64,000 bases of DNA from Subsaxibacter sp. CAU 1640 (GTDB taxonomy: Bacteria > Bacteroidota > Bacteroidia > Flavobacteriales > Flavobacteriaceae): NCBI RefSeq assembly GCF_023156585.1, contig NZ_JALNMI010000004.1, positions 1 through 64,000 of the forward strand. The letters run 5' to 3'. Position 1 is the first letter of the stretch. Each line of letters begins with the position of its first letter. Below, piece by piece: positions 4,880-63,842 of the stretch. The notes below the pieces were generated by a model that had not been told where the DNA came from, searched no databases, and worked only from the letters and a program-made list of their open reading frames with translations. The position numbers were made by a program, and so were the translations under genes.

Positions 4880-7450
4880 ATGGCAGAAGGAGAAAAACTG
4901 ATCCCAATTAATATTGAAGATGAAATGAAATCGGCCTACATCGATTACTCGATGTCGGTCATTGTGTCACGTGCATTACCAGATGTAAGAGATGGTTTAA
5001 AGCCTGTTCATAGAAGAGTACTCTATGGGATGCATGAATTGGGAGTAAGATCTAATACAGCACATAAAAAATCAGCGAGAATTGTTGGTGAAGTTTTGGG
5101 TAAATACCATCCACATGGAGATACATCTGTATATGATGCTATGGTGCGTATGGCTCAAGATTGGAGTTTGAGATACATGCTGGTCGATGGTCAAGGAAAC
5201 TTTGGTTCTATTGATGGTGATAGTCCTGCAGCGATGCGTTATACAGAAGCACGTATGCGCAAGATTTCTGAAGATATGTTGGCAGATATTGACAAAGAAA
5301 CTGTAGACCACCAATTGAATTTTGATGATACGCTCCAAGAACCAACAGTATTGCCTACTAGAATTCCTGGGTTGTTGGTGAATGGTGCCTCTGGTATAGC
5401 TGTAGGTATGGCGACCAATATGCCTCCTCATAATTTAAGTGAAGTTGTTGACGGAACCGTTGCCTACATTGACAATCCTGACATCGAAGTTGATGAGTTG
5501 ATCACGCACGTAAAAGCCCCAGATTTCCCAACGGGAGGAGTTGTTTATGGATATGATGGTGTTATTGAAGCCTTTAAGACTGGCCGTGGACGAATTGTTT
5601 TAAGGGGAAAAGCTTCATTTGAGGAAGTTCATGGTAGAGAGTCTATCATTGTGACTGAAATCCCTTATCAAGTAAACAAGGCAGATATGATCAAGAAAAC
5701 TGCCGACTTGATCAATGAGAAAAAGATTGATGGGATTTCGATGATTCGTGACGAATCGGACAGAAATGGAATGCGTATCGTTTATGTATTAAAGCGTGAT
5801 GCCATTCCTAACATCGTTTTAAACACCTTATATAAATATACTGCGCTTCAATCGTCTTTTAGTGTGAATAATATTGCACTCGTCAATGGAAGACCTCAAT
5901 TATTGAATCTGAAAGATCTGATTCATTATTTCGTTGAGCACAGGCACGAAGTGGTAGTTCGCAGAACAACTTATGAATTGCGCAAGGCGGAAGAGCGTGC
6001 GCATATATTAGAAGGTCTTATCATTGCTTCAGATAATATTGATGAAGTTATCGCTATTATTAGAGCTTCTGCAAATGCAGATGAAGCACGCGAAAAGTTG
6101 ATGACCCGTTTTGAATTGACTGAAATTCAAGCAAAAGCCATCGTTGAGATGCGTTTGCGTCAATTGACTGGACTGGAGCAAGACAAATTGCGTTCAGAGT
6201 ATGAAGAATTGATGAAGACCATCGAAGACTTGAAAGATATTCTTGATAAGAAAGAGCGTAGAATGCAGATCATCAAAGATGAATTGCTTACCGTGAAGGA
6301 TAAATATGGTGACGAGCGTCGTTCTGCCATAGAATATTCTGGAGGTGATTTGAGTATTGAAGATATGATTGCTGACGAGCAAGTTGTCATTACAATTTCT
6401 CATGCAGGTTATATCAAACGTACATCGCTTACCGAATACAAGACACAAAATAGAGGTGGAGTAGGGCAAAAAGCTTCAACAACGCGTAACGAAGATTTCT
6501 TGGAGCATTTGTTCGTAGGAACAAATCATCAATATATGTTGTTCTTTACTCAAAAAGGTAAATGTTTCTGGATGCGTGTTTATGAAATTCCCGAAGGAAG
6601 CAAAACTTCCAAAGGACGGGCGATTCAAAACCTTATCAATATTGAACAAGATGACAAAGTAAAGGCCTTTATCTGTACGCAAGATTTAAAGGATGAAGAC
6701 TATATTAATAGCCACTATGTCATTATGGCTACTAAAAAAGGTCAAGTCAAGAAGACATCTCTGGAACAGTATTCAAGACCAAGAACCAATGGTATCAACG
6801 CCATCACTATTAAGGAGGATGATGAATTGCTAGAGGCAAAACTAACAACTGGTAACAGCCAAGTGATGTTGGCATTAAAATCTGGTAAAGCTATCCGTTT
6901 TGAAGAAGCCAAAACCCGCCCGATGGGTCGAAATGCTTCAGGTGTAAGAGGTATCACGCTTGCAAACAGTAAAGATGAAGTCATAGGAATGGTGGCCGTT
7001 GAAAATCCGTTGGAAGAATCGGTTTTGGTAGTTTCTGAAAATGGTTACGGAAAACGTAGCTATATTGATGATCCTGAAGATGGTGAAGCGGTTTACAGAA
7101 TCACCAATCGAGGTGGAAAAGGTGTCAAAACTATTTCAATTACTGAAAAAACAGGTAGTCTGGTAGCAATTAAGACTGTTAGTGATGATGATGATTTGAT
7201 GATTATCAATAAATCTGGGATTGCCATTCGCATGGAGGTCAAAAACTTAAGGGTTATGGGCAGAGCAACACAAGGTGTGAAACTCATCAATCTAAAAGGT
7301 AATGACTCAATTGCTGCAGTTGCCAAGGTTATGAAAGAAGATGAAGAGGAGATTGAAGCCATTGAAAACGAATCTACATCTGCCGAAAATACTGGTGGAA
7401 CAGAAGATGGCACAACTCTTGATAATTCTGATGCAGAAAACAATAATTAA
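4880..7450 (+). CDS. gyrA: DNA gyrase subunit A
   Basis: The breakage-reunion subunit of gyrase, acting as A2B2 to introduce negative supercoils. The catalytic tyrosine is Y121 in RYTEARM. The quinolone region reads [10 protein letters not shown], so threonine T82 sits where E. coli has S83, and the acidic D86 is kept. The GyrA box of the C-terminal pinwheel is QNRGGVG at about residues 522-528, a variant of QRRGGKG. The final ~45 residues form a strongly acidic tail ([12 protein letters not shown] and onwards), known in E. coli GyrA to tune DNA wrapping. The 856-residue length is normal. It is probably co-transcribed with the TPR gene 24 bases downstream. Confidence 0.98.
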
Positions 7451-7474: not shown

Positions 7475-8749
7475 ATGAAAAAACAAATAATTGTTGCTTT
7501 GGCGCTTTTGGTTTCATCGTTTTCTTTTTCTCAAAAAGATGAATTAAAAGATGCTGAAAAAGCTATAAAAAGTGGAAACTACGCTGATGCCAAGTCTGCT
7601 ATAAAGTCAGCTGAAGCATTAATAGGAAGCGCTGACGAAAAAACAAAAGCAAAATTCTATTTTTTAAAAGGACAGGCTTTCTACGCAAACGGAACTGCCA
7701 CCAATGACGATGTAAATGTTGCTATTGAAAGTTTTGATAAAGTTGTAGAGATTGAAAAGAAAGATGGAAAATCAAAATATACTGATGAAGTAAATGAGAC
7801 AAAGCAATTAATGTTGAATTCTATCTTGACAAAAGCTAATAAAGCTCTGGAAGACAAAAATTATTCGGCTTCAGCTATAGGCTTTGAAAAGGCCTATCGT
7901 ATGTCACCTAAAGATACTCTATATCTTTATGTAGCTGCATCGGCTGCTATCAATGCTCAAGATTATAAAACTTCATTGAAACATTATGAAGAGTTGAGAA
8001 GTTTAGGTTTCACCGGGCAAGAAATGGAATACGTAGCAACTAACAAAGAAACTAATGAAGTAGATGTTTTTGACAACAAAACGATGAGAGATTTATCCAT
8101 TAAATCAGGAACTCACGTGGCTCCAAAAGATAAAAAATCTGATTCTAAAGCGGCGGAAATTATAAAGAATATAGCACTGATTTATATTAATAATGGCGAG
8201 AATGAGAAGGGACTTTTGGCCATTAAAGAGGCTAGGGAGTCTAATCCTGACGATTTGAGTCTTCTCTTGTCGGAAGCAAATGTTCATTTGCAAATGGGTA
8301 ATAGGGATGAATTTAAGAAATTAATTGAGGTGGCTACTCTCAAAGATCCAAAAAACCCAGAACTTCAATACAATTTAGGAGTTGTTGCTGCGGAAGCTGG
8401 CGACGTAGAATCAGCTAAAAAGTATTATGAAAAAGCTATTGCATTAGATCCTGAATATGCAGATGCATATAACAATATGGCAGTATTGAGTTTGCAAGGA
8501 GAACAAGCAATAATAGAGGAAATGAATAAACTTGGAACATCAGCTGCAGACAATAAAAAATACGATGAATTAAGAGAAAAGCGCTCTCAGATTTATAGAG
8601 ATGCCATACCATATCTTGAAACAACCTTGAAATTCAGGCCCAAAAATATTGAGGCTGCCAAAACACTTATGAATATCTACAGTGCTTTGGGAGAAACAGC
8701 TAAATTCAAAGAAATGAAAGCAAAAGTTGATGCTCTTCAAGGTGAATAG
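7475..8749 (+). CDS. Secreted tetratricopeptide repeat protein
   Basis: A 424-residue protein with a classical signal peptide (MKKQIIVALALLVSSFSFSQ, cleavage probably before the Q), so likely periplasmic. TPR-like helical pairs occur from about residue 25 to 170 and again at 225-410. The clearest unit is around 298-335 with YNLGVVAAEAGDVESAKKYY and ALDPEYADAYNN. Such proteins usually scaffold protein complexes; no partner can be read from the sequence. It follows gyrA closely in many flavobacterial genomes as I recall, and here is followed by a strong terminator, consistent with a gyrA-TPR transcript. Confidence 0.88.
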   Translation: MKKQIIVALALLVSSFSFSQKDELKDAEKAIKSGNYADAKSAIKSAEALIGSADEKTKAKFYFLKGQAFYANGTATNDDVNVAIESFDKVVEIEKKDGKSKYTDEVNETKQLMLNSILTKANKALEDKNYSASAIGFEKAYRMSPKDTLYLYVAASAAINAQDYKTSLKHYEELRSLGFTGQEMEYVATNKETNEVDVFDNKTMRDLSIKSGTHVAPKDKKSDSKAAEIIKNIALIYINNGENEKGLLAIKEARESNPDDLSLLLSEANVHLQMGNRDEFKKLIEVATLKDPKNPELQYNLGVVAAEAGDVESAKKYYEKAIALDPEYADAYNNMAVLSLQGEQAIIEEMNKLGTSAADNKKYDELREKRSQIYRDAIPYLETTLKFRPKNIEAAKTLMNIYSALGETAKFKEMKAKVDALQGE

Positions 8750-8770
8750 AGGTACTTTTACATTTTAAAT

Positions 8771-8802
8771 AAAAAAGCAACTCAATTGAGTTGCTTTTTT
8801 TT
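8771..8802. terminator. Bidirectional terminator between convergent genes
   Basis: AAAAAAGCAACTCAA and TTGAGTTGCTTTTTT form a 15-bp perfect stem with A- and T-runs on either side. It lies between the TPR gene and the convergent peptidase gene and should serve both; its last two bases overlap the peptidase stop. Confidence 0.88.
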
Positions 8803-9550
8803 ATATAATCTTTTTTATAACCCTTAACTTGTGGGTATGTTGCCGTTTATCATTGTTATATATTCCTGTATGATCAAGGCGGTCGATACGCACTTTTCCG
8901 TGTGCATGTATGATATGATTATCCTCCATAATTATTCCAACATGCACTATTTTTCCCTCATCATTGTCAAAAAAAGCCAAATCTCCAGGCTCGCTTTCCT
9001 CAATAAAGCTCAAAGCACTACCTTGAGTTGCTTGTTGTGAAGCATCTCTTAAAAGCTTATATCCATTAAGTTTGTAAACCATTTGTGTTAAACCAGAACA
9101 ATCAATTCCAAACGGGGTTTTTCCTCCCCATAAATATGGCGCGTTTAAATAGTTGAAGGCAGTTTCTAGTAAGTTGTATTTTGGTTTTGTACCTTCAACA
9201 AAATTTCCATCATGTTGGTGTTTCAGAATATCTAAACCGTTCAATGTTGAGCCTAATGGAATTGTGTGCAATCGATCGTTCTCGTCTTGTACAAACTCAA
9301 CCAAATCTGTAGATAATTTTAAAATTGAATCATCTAGAGTGCAATAATCTTCTTCGGAAATAATAACGTATTGCTTATTGTCAATCCAGCCTTCATATTT
9401 ATCATATGCAAGTCGAATTTTACTCCAAGATTTGCGTTGCTCCAATACTTTAAAAAATTCACCATACAATACTTGAGAAACCATCTCTGAAGTATCGGCA
9501 GGATCTAATCTTAAAGGAACAATGCTTAAGCTACAGATTCCGTATTGCAT
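8801..9550 (-). CDS. NlpC/P60 family cysteine peptidase with SH3-like domain
   Basis: A probable cell-wall peptidase (C40 family), cutting gamma-D-Glu-diamino acid bonds in peptidoglycan peptides. The first ~90 residues form a bacterial SH3-like region (EFFKVLEQRKSWSKIRL, EGWIDNKQY). The catalytic half has the cysteine in GIDCSG, the histidine in VHVGII and a polar third residue in HIIHAHGK. No signal peptide is seen, so the protein may be cytosolic and act in recycling, as proposed for similar proteins. The ATG at 9550 is taken; a TTG one codon upstream is possible. It follows the thiolase gene by nine bases and is likely in its operon. Confidence 0.9.
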   Translation of the reverse strand: MQYGICSLSIVPLRLDPADTSEMVSQVLYGEFFKVLEQRKSWSKIRLAYDKYEGWIDNKQYVIISEEDYCTLDDSILKLSTDLVEFVQDENDRLHTIPLGSTLNGLDILKHQHDGNFVEGTKPKYNLLETAFNYLNAPYLWGGKTPFGIDCSGLTQMVYKLNGYKLLRDASQQATQGSALSFIEESEPGDLAFFDNDEGKIVHVGIIMEDNHIIHAHGKVRIDRLDHTGIYNNDKRQHTHKLRVIKKII

Positions 9551-37225: not shown

Positions 37226-38212
37226 ATGTCAAAAACGATTAAAAGAATAGGTGTCATGACCTCTGGTGGCGACTCGCCAGGAATGAATGCCGCCATACGT
37301 TCTGTAGTTCGTACTTGTGCCTACCATAATATAGAATGTGTAGGTATCTACAGAGGTTATGAAGGAATGATAGAAGGAGATTTTAAAGCCATGGACGCAC
37401 GTAGTGTCAAGGGCATCATCAATAAAGGCGGAACCGTCTTAAAATCTGCTCGCTCCAAAGAATTTAGAACAGAAGAAGGTCGCAAAACTGCACACCAAAA
37501 ACTCACAGAAGCAAACATAGATGCATTGGTGCTCATCGGTGGTGACGGTACCTTTACCGGTGGACTTATTTTCAATAAAGAATACGATTTTCCTATTATA
37601 GGCATTCCAGGTACTATTGATAACGATATTTATGGTACGTCCCATACCTTGGGCTTCGATACCGCATTAAATACAGTAGTAGAGTGTATCGATAAAATCA
37701 GAGATACAGCCAGTTCACACAACAGATTATTCTTTGTGGAAGTGATGGGCCGAGATGTAGGTCACATCGCTTTAAATGCAGGTGTTGGAGCAGGAGCAGA
37801 GGAAATCCTCATCCCTGAAGAAGATTTAGGTTTGGATCGTCTGTTGGAATCCTTACAGCGTAGTAAACAATCCGGTAAATCATCAAGTATTGTCGTGGTT
37901 GCTGAAGGTGACAAAATAGGAAAGAATGTCTTCGAATTGAAAGATTATGTAGAAGAAAATATGATTGAATATGATGTCAGGGTTTCTGTTCTTGGTCATA
38001 TGCAGCGTGGTGGTTCGCCATCGTGTTTCGATAGAGTGCTTGCAAGCCGTATGGGAGTAAAAGCTGTAGAAAGTCTTCTCGAAGGAAAAACCAACTATAT
38101 GGTGGGCCTTCTCAATGATGTGATGGCGTTGACGCCGTTAGAGCAAGCCGTAAAAGGAAAATCAAAAATCAATAAAGAATTATTGCGCGTGTCTGATATT
38201 ATGACGACGTAA
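37226..38212 (+). CDS. pfkA: 6-phosphofructokinase (ATP-dependent)
   Basis: A 328-residue enzyme that phosphorylates fructose 6-phosphate in glycolysis. Motifs: GVMTSGGDSPGMNAAIR at the start, IGGDGTFTGG, where the glycine after GGD marks the ATP type rather than the PPi type, GTIDNDIYGTSHTLGFDTA (catalytic aspartates) and EVMGRDVGH. It starts with ATG at 37226. It heads a sugar cluster with gapA 39 bases downstream, so the pair is likely co-transcribed. Confidence 0.97.
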   Translation: MSKTIKRIGVMTSGGDSPGMNAAIRSVVRTCAYHNIECVGIYRGYEGMIEGDFKAMDARSVKGIINKGGTVLKSARSKEFRTEEGRKTAHQKLTEANIDALVLIGGDGTFTGGLIFNKEYDFPIIGIPGTIDNDIYGTSHTLGFDTALNTVVECIDKIRDTASSHNRLFFVEVMGRDVGHIALNAGVGAGAEEILIPEEDLGLDRLLESLQRSKQSGKSSSIVVVAEGDKIGKNVFELKDYVEENMIEYDVRVSVLGHMQRGGSPSCFDRVLASRMGVKAVESLLEGKTNYMVGLLNDVMALTPLEQAVKGKSKINKELLRVSDIMTT

Positions 38213-38239: not shown

Positions 38240-39253
<1,014 letters not shown>

Positions 39254-61321: not shown

Positions 61322-62206
61322 ATGAAAACCAAAAAAACATCAGAAGCAACAGAAACCTCTTTCGAGGACATCAAACAAGGAATTAATATTACTAATGAAG
61401 CTGCGTTGGCTGCTATAGCAGAACGGAACAATGCTGCTGAAAAACGACCTGCAACACGCCTAGGCGAGAATGATGAACAACCTATTAAGTCTGCAAAGAA
61501 AGACCGCAGCATTGCGGCTACGGTGGACAATGGTAAAAAGTTTAATGCGAATATTGCCACCTTTGTACCACAATGGTTGTCCAATAATGCGTTGATAGTG
61601 TTGGAGAGTCTGCTAGCGATAGTTGTACTGGCAGGAGAGTTGGTAACCAATGTGAATGATAAAGTTGTAATGCACGGTAACCTTTTGAAGGTGCGTTTTA
61701 TGCTTTTTAATAACATTGATGCGTTTGGAACGCGAGTTTTAAATGAGTTGAAGGCGAGTGGTGCGCCAAGCACTACCATAGTGCGTGCCAACCATATCAT
61801 CTTAAAGATGCGTGGGAAACGTATTATTGCCATTGACCCTAATGAGACTGATGAAAAACACATCAGTGCGTGCCAAACGACGTTTGTAAACCAACTGGAA
61901 CATTTTAATGAGCTGATAACGCTAGTGAGCACTGTACCGAGCTATAACCCTGTGGTTGCTGAATTGCAGTTGGCCGCTTTAAAATTACGTGCTACAGAAA
62001 TGCTAGAAGCCCTTGAGAATGCGGAAGTGAGCCAAGCGGAACTGACTGCTGCAAGACGTGAGCGCAACAAATGTTTTAATGAGGAAACCGTAGGACTGGT
62101 AGATCGTTTTCAAACGGCGAAAGCTTCGGCGAAGGCGGTGTATGGTACAACGAGTGCGGAGTTTAAGTCTATTAAAGGATTGGAGTTTAGAAGGATTGAG
62201 GAGTAA
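61322..62206 (+). CDS. Unrecognised 294-residue protein, helical, disordered N-terminus
   Basis: The first ~75 residues are polar and probably disordered (KKTSEATETSFEDIK, ERNNAAEKRPATRLGENDEQ), ending with a basic SAKKDRSIAATVDN. The rest is predicted helical with many A, L, E and K residues, and a conserved-looking end (CFNEETVGLVDRFQTAKASA, EFKSIKGLEFRRIEE). I recall that similar proteins occur as multiple copies in flavobacteria with unknown function. It is flanked by inverted copies of a GTGCAGATAT motif (see findings), unlike the surrounding genes, and has a terminator ~55 bases past its stop. Confidence 0.6.
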   Translation: MKTKKTSEATETSFEDIKQGINITNEAALAAIAERNNAAEKRPATRLGENDEQPIKSAKKDRSIAATVDNGKKFNANIATFVPQWLSNNALIVLESLLAIVVLAGELVTNVNDKVVMHGNLLKVRFMLFNNIDAFGTRVLNELKASGAPSTTIVRANHIILKMRGKRIIAIDPNETDEKHISACQTTFVNQLEHFNELITLVSTVPSYNPVVAELQLAALKLRATEMLEALENAEVSQAELTAARRERNKCFNEETVGLVDRFQTAKASAKAVYGTTSAEFKSIKGLEFRRIEE

Positions 62207-62371: not shown

Positions 62372-62424
62372 AGTGCAGATATCCCGACAATGAAAGGTTA
62401 AAAACACTATTTTAGTGCAGATAT
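62372..62424. repeat. Paired AGTGCAGATAT direct repeats
   Basis: AGTGCAGATAT occurs at 62372-62382 and 62414-62424, 42 bases apart. The second ends six bases before the inverted repeat that opens the first cassette-like unit. Confidence 0.7.
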
Positions 62425-62429
62425 AACAA

Positions 62430-62439
62430 GTTACCCAAC
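62430..62439 (+). repeat. 5' flank GTTACCCAAC of cassette-like unit 1
   Basis: The reverse complement GTTGGGTAAC recurs at 63022-63031 just after the gene. GTTACC is shared with unit 2 (63150) while the next bases differ. Confidence 0.7.
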
Positions 62440-62445
62440 ATTTGA

Positions 62446-63015
62446 ATGAAAGCCCGAAAAAGAATTGAAAATACTGAAGTACTTGAGTTTCTAAAACCTG
62501 ATTTACTCGCTGAAATAAAACCATATTTTGGACTTGGAGGTTTTAACTTTAATCAAAATATTAAGGACTTTGAACAAAATTGGACTTACTCATATTTTGA
62601 AAAAGAAATACCAAACGGATTGAATTTTAAACTTGACGAAAATTACTTTTACTTAAGTGTTAACACCAGAAATAATGAGATTCACTTTGATATAGATTTG
62701 TTTACTGGAAAATTAAGCTCTATAATTTGTGGTAAAGGTTATAAAGGCAAATTAGATATTGGAGTCGGAATTGGAAGTTCAGTTAAAGAAGCATTAAAAA
62801 AGGACAAAAGTTTAGGATATAACTTGGATACTGATTGGATTGACAGAACTCCTTTCGATGGTTTAATAATTCATGTTCCACAGAAATTGCAAGCGGAATG
62901 TTGGGATTGTGCTTCCAGAGGAATTGAACTACCTGATTTCGAAATTGAACATATTGAATTAATTGATTTAGATTTCGCTAAAAAATTCTACGAAGGAGAA
63001 CTTTATTTTGAATAA
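62446..63015 (+). CDS. Hypothetical protein of cassette-like unit 1
   Basis: A 189-residue soluble protein (MKARKRIENTEVLEFLKPDL to ELYFE). No recognised domain: N-terminal helix, then beta-rich segments with aromatic residues, YLSVNTRNNEIHFDIDLFTG, and a cysteine pair near the end (ECWDCAS). The acidic, single-domain, orphan character resembles immunity-type or small accessory proteins, but that is speculation. It is flanked by a matched inverted repeat, GTTACCCAAC at 62430 and GTTGGGTAAC at 63022, and its TAA lies seven bases before the latter. Confidence 0.72.
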   Translation: MKARKRIENTEVLEFLKPDLLAEIKPYFGLGGFNFNQNIKDFEQNWTYSYFEKEIPNGLNFKLDENYFYLSVNTRNNEIHFDIDLFTGKLSSIICGKGYKGKLDIGVGIGSSVKEALKKDKSLGYNLDTDWIDRTPFDGLIIHVPQKLQAECWDCASRGIELPDFEIEHIELIDLDFAKKFYEGELYFE

Positions 63016-63021
63016 AAAAAC

Positions 63022-63158
63022 GTTGGGTAACACCGTGTATAATTCATTGCTTCGGATTTTTCCTCTGGAAAATCCTCGCCTTCCCTTAATTTGTTTCTTT
63101 TTTCCATATCTTTTCTCTAATTTAACGCAACGAAATCATGCACAAACACGTTACCTGC
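63022..63158 (+). repeat. Attachment-like imperfect palindrome between two cassette-like genes
   Basis: Outer arms GGTAAC (63026-63031) and GTTACC (63150-63155) pair fully. Next inward GTGTAT (63035-63040) pairs with ATGCAC (63138-63143) with one G-T. ATTCATTGC (63042-63050) pairs with GCAACGAAAT (63127-63136) with a mismatch and bulge. An inner hairpin GGATTTTTCC/GGAAAATCC lies at about 63054-63075. Total 137 bp. This two-arm, mismatched layout is that of integron attC sites; the core sequence is not canonical. Confidence 0.55.
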
Positions 63159-63164
63159 AATTGA

Positions 63165-63572
63165 ATGAAAAGCGGAATAATCATATTAACTATACTTCTT
63201 TGCGGATTGACGCAAAATTTTCAATCGGATTCTAAAAAGGAAACCAAGTATATACTGAAAGGCAAATTAATAAACGGTTTTGACGGACTTACACCTCTGT
63301 GCGGAATTTCGGCTTGGGCTACGGTTCTTGAATTTGAGATAATTGAATTTTCTGATTCGGAATATATAGACAAAACAATACCTATTATTTTTACTTGTCC
63401 AAATTCAAAAAGCAACAAACAATTTAAAGTCGGAAAAACTTATGAGTTGATTTTGACTGACAAAAATCCGTCTAAATTTGAATGGACAATGCTTGAATCA
63501 AAAAGAGAGATTCTGAATCAATATGAATTGAATAAAGAGTATTGGTTTGTAGAAAATAAAAACAGCAGGTAA
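63165..63572 (+). CDS. Hypothetical exported protein of cassette-like unit 2
   Basis: A 135-residue protein with an N-terminal hydrophobic segment (SGIIILTILLCGLTQNF) that suits a signal peptide or a lipoprotein; LLCG is a plausible relaxed lipobox. The mature part has two cysteines (TPLCGISAW, FTCPNSK) and strand-like sequence with an ending of YWFVENKNSR. No family is recognised. Its TAA stop lies inside the 3' GGTAAC repeat. The matched pair is GTTACCTGC at 63150 and GCAGGTAAC at 63565. Confidence 0.68.
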   Translation: MKSGIIILTILLCGLTQNFQSDSKKETKYILKGKLINGFDGLTPLCGISAWATVLEFEIIEFSDSEYIDKTIPIIFTCPNSKSNKQFKVGKTYELILTDKNPSKFEWTMLESKREILNQYELNKEYWFVENKNSR

Positions 63573-63842
63573 CACCGTATATAAGCTATGGCTTGGTCAG
63601 TCCATACATGGAAAATCCTTGAGGTTTTTATCTGCAACTGAACCGAAGATTTTACGAGGCTAATTTCTTCATTGGTTTCATTTTTTCTTTTTAACGAATA
63701 AACACTCCTTTTGTCGGTTTTGTAAAAGGGTGGTGTAGGAGTGGTTGAAATATTTGGTATGTTTGAGATACTCTCCCTAGTAATTTTAATAGAATAGCGC
63801 ATAGCATTTCAATATGGTTGTTTCATTGGAAGTGTTACAGTG
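63565..63842 (+). repeat. Second attachment-like region after unit 2 (3' partner uncertain)
   Basis: The left half is like the first site: GGTAACACCGT then A then TATAA, 51-52 bases to TGGAAAATCCT. Right-hand partners are weaker: GCTATG (63585-63590) with CATAGC (63800-63805), and a GTTAC core at 63834-63838 followed by AGTG. The spacing is about double that of the first site. Confidence 0.35.

Follow-up and report, generated by a model that had tools for sequence, protein, structure and literature searches.

In integrons, the ends that adjoin in a circular gene cassette are parted again on integration, and attC sites span 57-141 bp, as set out in passages of PMC3053210. The integrases of these systems are recognised by an IntI-specific domain, which passages of PMC9668308 and PMC2426708 treat as their marker. 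For the Bacteroidetes, passages of PMC9024848 report only lone integrases at first and then one complete integron, in Salinibacter.

Here, a cassette array is described from Subsaxibacter sp. CAU 1640; the window, meaning the whole stretch of DNA analysed, comprises positions 1-64,000 of NZ_JALNMI010000004.1, forward strand. Judging from sequence, 63022-63159 is very probably an attC-like cassette site of an integron-like system in the Bacteroidia, served by a dedicated recombinase of about 390 aa. No description of this system was recognised in searches of an open-access library that excludes preprints and most subscription papers.

A two-cassette array in Subsaxibacter

An initial annotation had placed an attC-like imperfect palindrome between two cassette-like genes, and a letter-by-letter check finds its boxes within 63022-63159. 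The array comprises the following features, the parts of the first site being listed below it.

62380-62432, plus strand: attI-like sequence, TATCCCG ... GATATAACAA/GTT (slash at the boundary), directly ahead of cassette 1, by matrix match
62431-63150, plus strand: cassette 1, from TT to the G of its own site; start ACCCAAC and end GTTGGGT complementary at 7/7
62446-63015, plus strand: gene of cassette 1 (189 aa), unmatched in Pfam and PADLOC
63022-63159, plus strand: attC-like site of cassette 1, R'' to R' (the palindrome of the initial annotation), by letters and covariance model
63022-63031: R'', GTTGGGTAAC
63032-63034: spacer ACC after R''
63035-63040: L'', GTGTAT
63042-63050: stretch ATTCATTGC beyond L''
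63127-63136: stretch GCAACGAAAT ahead of L'
63138-63143: L', ATGCAC
63144-63149: spacer AAACAC between L' and R'
63150-63159: R', GTTACCTGCA
63151-63660, plus strand: cassette 2, to the remainder of its site; start ACCTGCA and end AGCAGGT complementary at 6/7
63165-63572, plus strand: gene of cassette 2 (135 aa), unmatched in Pfam and PADLOC
63564-63660, plus strand: attC-like site of cassette 2, weak and probably decayed, with a clear 5' half and no clear 3' end (25.8 bits, E 0.0038)

The inner hairpin first proposed, GGATTTTTCC/GGAAAATCC, appears in single-strand folds of both strands. Set against dinucleotide shuffles, a test that the initial annotation had itself named, the real site folds no better on either strand: the top strand gives -6.2 kcal/mol (z 0.53; 139/200 shuffles as good or better) and the bottom strand -9.9 kcal/mol (z -0.29; 72/200). 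The palindrome of the window copy is by itself no evidence, since its fold is matched by shuffles, and relatives are therefore needed. Joined to its own cassette start, as in a circular form, the same site gives -14.8 on the bottom strand (z -2.1) and -10.7 on the top strand (z -1.6). A covariance model of 80 sites matches 63022-63159 over its full length with 88.8 bits; the window site is one of the 80, and a member matches by construction. Around the window site the sole Rfam match is at chance level (an unrelated sRNA; 22 bits where the gathering score is 50, E 0.11), and three loci with arrays gave nothing at the gathering score.

A relative of the cassette 1 gene was found in one of 396 other Flavobacteriaceae genomes, and in neither of the two congeners that these include. 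In that genome, G248, it begins right after a GTT behind a site-like 3' end, and no R'' matching that start was seen behind the gene, both judged by eye. Upstream of the attI-like sequence, at 61322-62206, lies an unrelated gene of 294 aa with no Pfam match; seven of its relatives occur in the congener G097, and loci L007 and L129 also have relatives close to sites. Behind cassette 2, a 477 aa AAA ATPase gene (L005, 3869-5299) has PADLOC similarity to AriA, GajA and PtuA and is possibly a defence gene carried near the array.

The site family and its inner stem

A pattern for the 5' half of the site is present in 157 of 249 Flavobacteriaceae genomes, often in long one-stranded runs (in G014, one strand has 40 and the other 1), and a reversed control pattern gave at most two hits per strand in every one of these genomes. 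For the window's genome the covariance model gives 26 matches at E <= 1e-5, and for G014 and G163 it gives 97 (98 candidates scored) and 40, respectively. Under stricter filters 64 of 345 Bacteroidia genomes have a match; the multi-genome searches scored part of the candidates, nine per genome in this case and up to 98 in the comparison with IntI-bearing genomes below. To be detected, a site had to show CGTT at its 3' end together with conserved 5' letters, which biases the set to well-kept sites. From R box to R box the sites have a median length of 139 bp (5-95%, 137-202; 240 sites), which lies within the attC range of 57-141 bp, a minority being longer.

The inner stem, formed by L''/L' and the stretch beyond, is 96.7% paired over 80 sites, and both sides have changed in 8 of its 13 pairs. 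Its covariation is 0.341 against 0.093 +/- 0.009 when shuffled, none of 500 shuffles being as high, and RNAalifold unaided predicted nine of the 13 pairs. Slid controls gave 0.019 to 0.103, lower values being expected because the structure was drawn from these same 80 sequences. An imperfect palindrome kept by compensatory changes, a hallmark of integron sites, is thus found in the inner stem. Of the compensatory changes that the initial annotation looked to in related sites, those of the inner stem are strongly evident, while the outer boxes do not covary within one site: the seven variable outer bases are paired in 43.6% of cases, against 45.3% when shuffled (80 sites). The outer GGTAAC/GTTACC, read as a pair in the initial annotation, is accordingly not the pairing under selection, and the partner of R'' is instead the start of its own cassette at 62430, with 7/7 bases.

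The core is GTTRRRY in 11 of 185 sites and RYYYAAC in 10 of 185, GTT and AAC having been conditions of detection in this count, so that the core of integron sites is seldom encountered; the fourth core position is a purine in 185/185, though this was not a detection condition. These counts bear on the least unlikely alternative, namely that these are ordinary integron cassettes (CALIN), with classical attC sites moved by a classical IntI and the recombinase at the head of the arrays irrelevant. The architecture is indeed the same as that of attC, and Polaribacter phage P12002L, which carries seven covariance-model matches at E below 1e-5 (for example 39116-39251 and a short one at 38029-38096), is reported in passages of PMC9892861 to hold one attC that IntI1 recombined with attI1 and another that failed, although the assayed attC1 and attC2 may not be the sites matched here. 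Besides the core, the distribution of IntI itself argues against ordinary integron cassettes: IntI (TIGR02249) is found in 84 of 296 Bacteroidota genomes, none of the 84 belonging to the Flavobacteriaceae, and among 30 IntI-bearing Bacteroidota genomes the same covariance model has one match each in 5 and none in 25, against the 26, 97 and 40 of the three Flavobacteriaceae above. A classical IntI is thus an improbable agent for these arrays.

Cassette ends and strand folding

Once sites lacking both ends and cassettes above 2,500 bases had been set aside, the removal of exact duplicates took the set from 154 to 140 distinct cassettes. In these 140, the variable bases of R'' match the opposite end of the same cassette at an average of 5.5 out of eight positions; the hairpin of the site itself gives 2.9 and shuffled (random) partners give 2.6. 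At least six of seven variable bases match in 73% of these cassettes, compared with 9% for the own hairpin and 4% for shuffled partners, and the eighth end position matches in 1.4%. In the genome of the window six cassettes were checked, and every one has 6 or 7 of its 7 end bases matching. Matching ends are expected if, in a circle, the G of the site stands next to the TT of the cassette and the seven bases after it, and the two are parted on integration; the matching within the same cassette therefore suggests the G/TT boundary with a circular intermediate by which integrons are known. The longest ORF (at least 50 aa) runs in the array direction in 82 of 99 cassettes with matching ends and in the opposite direction in 3, with none in 14. 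Cassette sharing between arrays was sought in 99 cassettes and gave one homologous pair, both members in G014.

Folding was compared between strands in 104 circular forms with at least 5/7 matching end bases and short sites, a selection that favours a strong outer stem, and in 101 of them the bottom strand has the more stable fold. For the 40 of these that were folded against shuffles, the mean z is -5.3 on the bottom and -4.3 on the top strand, and -3.5 and -2.9, respectively, when the same sites are taken as arranged in the array. Two A/C mismatches are conserved, in 76/80 and 77/80 sites, and would be T/G on the bottom strand. Together, the folding asymmetry and these mismatches are consistent with a folded bottom strand as the substrate.

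Recombinases at the head of the arrays

The gene at the head of large arrays encodes a tyrosine recombinase of about 390 aa. When eight of these enzymes were used to scan genomes, at least 527 relatives came up, of which the best 80 were kept; these come mostly from Flavobacteriaceae genera such as Lutibacter, Polaribacter, Formosa and Tamlana. Around these best 80 of at least 527, strict-pattern sites on the strand of the recombinase number 72 downstream and 1 upstream, with 0 on the other strand, over 322,621 bases downstream and about twice as much (702,069) upstream. Among the same 80, a strict-pattern site is seen in 35 of the 47 loci with more than 1,500 bases downstream and in none of the other 12; in 33 of the 80 loci L078-L157 the contig leaves at most 1,500 bases, and the arrays are undercounted because repeated sites probably break assemblies. 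Relatives of the array enzyme occur in 159 of 249 Flavobacteriaceae genomes, and some genomes with the enzyme, for example G007-G009, have no strict-pattern hit.

This polarity, together with the cassette ends, makes it highly unlikely that the sites are dispersed palindromic repeats between genes (REP-, MITE- or terminator-like) with no recombination system. Such elements would explain why the sites stand behind genes and why some contain a strong inner hairpin; they would not give matching of both ends specific to each unit, nor would they lie almost exclusively downstream of one recombinase family and on one strand.

All six catalytic residues are kept in 39/39 array enzymes and the IntI-specific additional domain around patch III is absent from all 39, the catalytic Lys and His being 64 residues apart in each. 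Counted from motif to motif, this distance is 65 in the 13 readable array enzymes, 71-73 in 23 Xer and 107 in 11 IntI. TIGR02249 scores 187.7-210.7 bits in 8/8 array enzymes, below its cut-off of 265, with a best E of 1e-65 among the 39, and NF040815 matches 39/39 at E <= 1e-10, its cut-off of 220 bits being passed by 3/8. A structure predicted for one enzyme (mean pLDDT 83.8, pTM 0.57) has a putative strand-helix N-terminal domain of about 80 residues followed by the two usual domains, and its best fold matches are XerA, an archaeal Xer and IntI4.

A quick tree of 73 rows, with SH-aLRT as its sole support measure, has three groups, made up of the Xer rows (99), the IntI rows (100) and 34 of the array enzymes (99), while four further array enzymes form a separate group and the long-branched L075 joins IntI without strong support; because of these five, the array enzymes are not established as one clade, nor placed relative to IntI. 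A second branch of array-head recombinases (L067, L068, L071 and L074) is 33-36% identical to L062 and accompanies the same site type. The least credible alternative, movement of the cassettes by chromosomal XerC/XerD at dif-like sites, can draw on two Xer-like recombinases in the window's genome (frames of 319 and 311 aa, neither the array enzyme), and founders on the separate branching of the Xer of these genomes from the array enzymes (23 Xer, SH-aLRT 99; the window is judged here through its relatives) and on the sites, which as folded units measure about 139 bp and have arms specific to each cassette, in contrast to the short dif site.

Between the recombinase and the first site, a cassette start matching the R'' of that site at 9 or 10 of 10 bases lies in 42 of 44 loci (46 tried, 44 with a first site; best position per interval taken; the 44 represent 42 distinct loci, as L065/L122 and L069/L116 share contigs). 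In 20 loci this start lies 27-134 bases past the recombinase stop codon and is preceded by a shared sequence, typically TATCCCG, about 33 bases and then ATATAACYA/GTT, which probably corresponds to the attI found beside the integrase gene in integrons. With a 17-position matrix from 20 sequences behind recombinase genes (members score 11.3-24.1 bits), the window's attI-like sequence scores 16.1 bits, the best in the 64 kb on both strands (next best 11.0), and TATCCCG stands at the same spacing, though outside the matrix.

In the window's genome, which is 99.93% complete, the array enzyme had no match at E <= 1e-55 (7 of 10 candidates scored); a congener has two. A Pfam catalytic-domain search, in which all five tyrosine recombinase candidates of the genome were scored, gave four matches: two Xer-like proteins, a weak frame of 403 aa and a fragment. 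Against the array-enzyme model, members of which score at least 434 bits, the two Xer-like proteins score 170 and 121, and the 403 aa frame, at the end of the contig, does not match. A tblastn search for integrase remnants around the window array gave eight hits at E 0.22-0.92 only, and the window's flanking genes had no hit beside the congener's two recombinases (L072 and L073) among the loci compared. The simplest reading is that the recombinase has been lost from this genome.

Mobile elements at the sites

Elements that carry or enter the sites were also encountered. Chryseobacterium plasmid NZ_CP041688 encodes a related enzyme (39.6% identity), and the genes that follow it have four same-strand model matches (E 7e-6 to 1e-3). 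On the same plasmid (L202, 12217-13595 and 14680-16664), two sites are probably interrupted, one by a transposase annotated as IS110-family and one by a group II intron reverse transcriptase, each insert lying between the likely 5' end and the remainder of the site. Group IIC-attC introns likewise split attC sites in integrons. In L005 (contig C4 of the window's genome, G000, just past the window), an IS110-type transposase gene, assigned to this family by eye (7809-8798, minus strand), sits between an R'' at 7771-7780, which matches the cassette start at 7319, and the remainder of a site, a model match at 8973-9110 (E 2e-10). This arrangement suggests insertion of the element into the site, the behaviour of IS1111-attC elements in integrons. 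In the lytic phage P12002L, two short sites of about 70 bp (L203, 38029-38096 and 38873-38942) flank a methyltransferase gene on the opposite strand.

A model for the arrays

The initial proposal of an attC-like site between two cassettes is upheld by the compensatory changes of the inner stem, the cassette-specific matching ends, the attI-like sequence ahead and the recombinase-headed arrays of relatives. On the other side weigh the weak fold of the window copy, the 12 loci and the enzyme-bearing genomes that lack a strict-pattern site, the scarcity of shared cassettes and the bias of site detection. What can be read from the letters is the site family, its covariation, the matching ends, the polarity, the attI-like sequence and the lack of an enzyme match in the window's genome; the recombination that we infer would run as follows. 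Cassettes would leave as circles, and a dedicated tyrosine recombinase (about 390 aa), a relative of Xer and IntI that lacks the IntI-specific insertion, would reinsert them by joining the G/TT of the circular cassette to the attI-like sequence just behind its own gene or, as an alternative target, to the site of another cassette, which would give one-directional arrays. The TT plus seven bases would thereby be transferred to the opposite end of the linear cassette, for which reason the match of R'' is with the beginning of its own cassette, the neighbouring cassette showing none. By analogy with integrons, a folded bottom strand is the likely substrate. The window would then hold an orphan array, an attI-like sequence and two cassettes, movable only by an enzyme acting in trans, and we read it as what is left, without its enzyme, of an integron-like system that is widespread and uses an integrase other than IntI.

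Two defining features of the IntI/attC family, the IntI domain and the GTTRRRY/RYYYAAC core, were looked for and are absent and rare, respectively, which places the site set outside that family. The chances are about even that this is a second kind of integron across the Bacteroidia, capturing genes through folded sites without the IntI domain, which arose apart from IntI or before its insertion, the domain being thus dispensable for integron-type recombination. If active, the system would amount to a large reservoir of mobile genes that have gone unread (a single genome can have 97 model matches, and enzyme relatives occur in 159/249 genomes) and would allow a direct test of whether the IntI-specific domain is needed to recombine folded single strands.

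Comparison with known systems

XerA and archaeal Xer are the best sequence and fold matches of the array enzyme, in keeping with the NF040815 matches in 39/39, but array enzymes have about 90 extra N-terminal residues and are located at cassette arrays. In an integron-like subgroup of tyrosine recombinases the IntI insertion is, as here, not fully conserved, and the passages of PMC8138268 that deal with it describe no cassette arrays for insertion-less enzymes. Phage P12002L has seven matches to the present model; passages of PMC9892861 treat sites of this phage as attC and test them with IntI1.

A CALIN is defined by at least two nearby attC sites and no integrase. The window resembles one in having cassettes and sites in a genome with 26 model matches and no array enzyme found; it differs in keeping an attI-like sequence and in the non-classical family of its sites, the second of which is weak. 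Like integrons in general, the arrays run in a single direction, their sites fold and have R and L boxes with unpaired spacers of unequal length, the boundary is G/TT with a travelling R' box, and an attI-like site stands beside the integrase gene. Unlike integrons, they have an enzyme that lacks the IntI insertion and carries an extra N-terminal domain, and a core of GTTR followed by variable bases, rarely GTTRRRY. Furthermore, the enzyme gene is co-directional with the cassettes, whereas class 1 intI is divergent from them.
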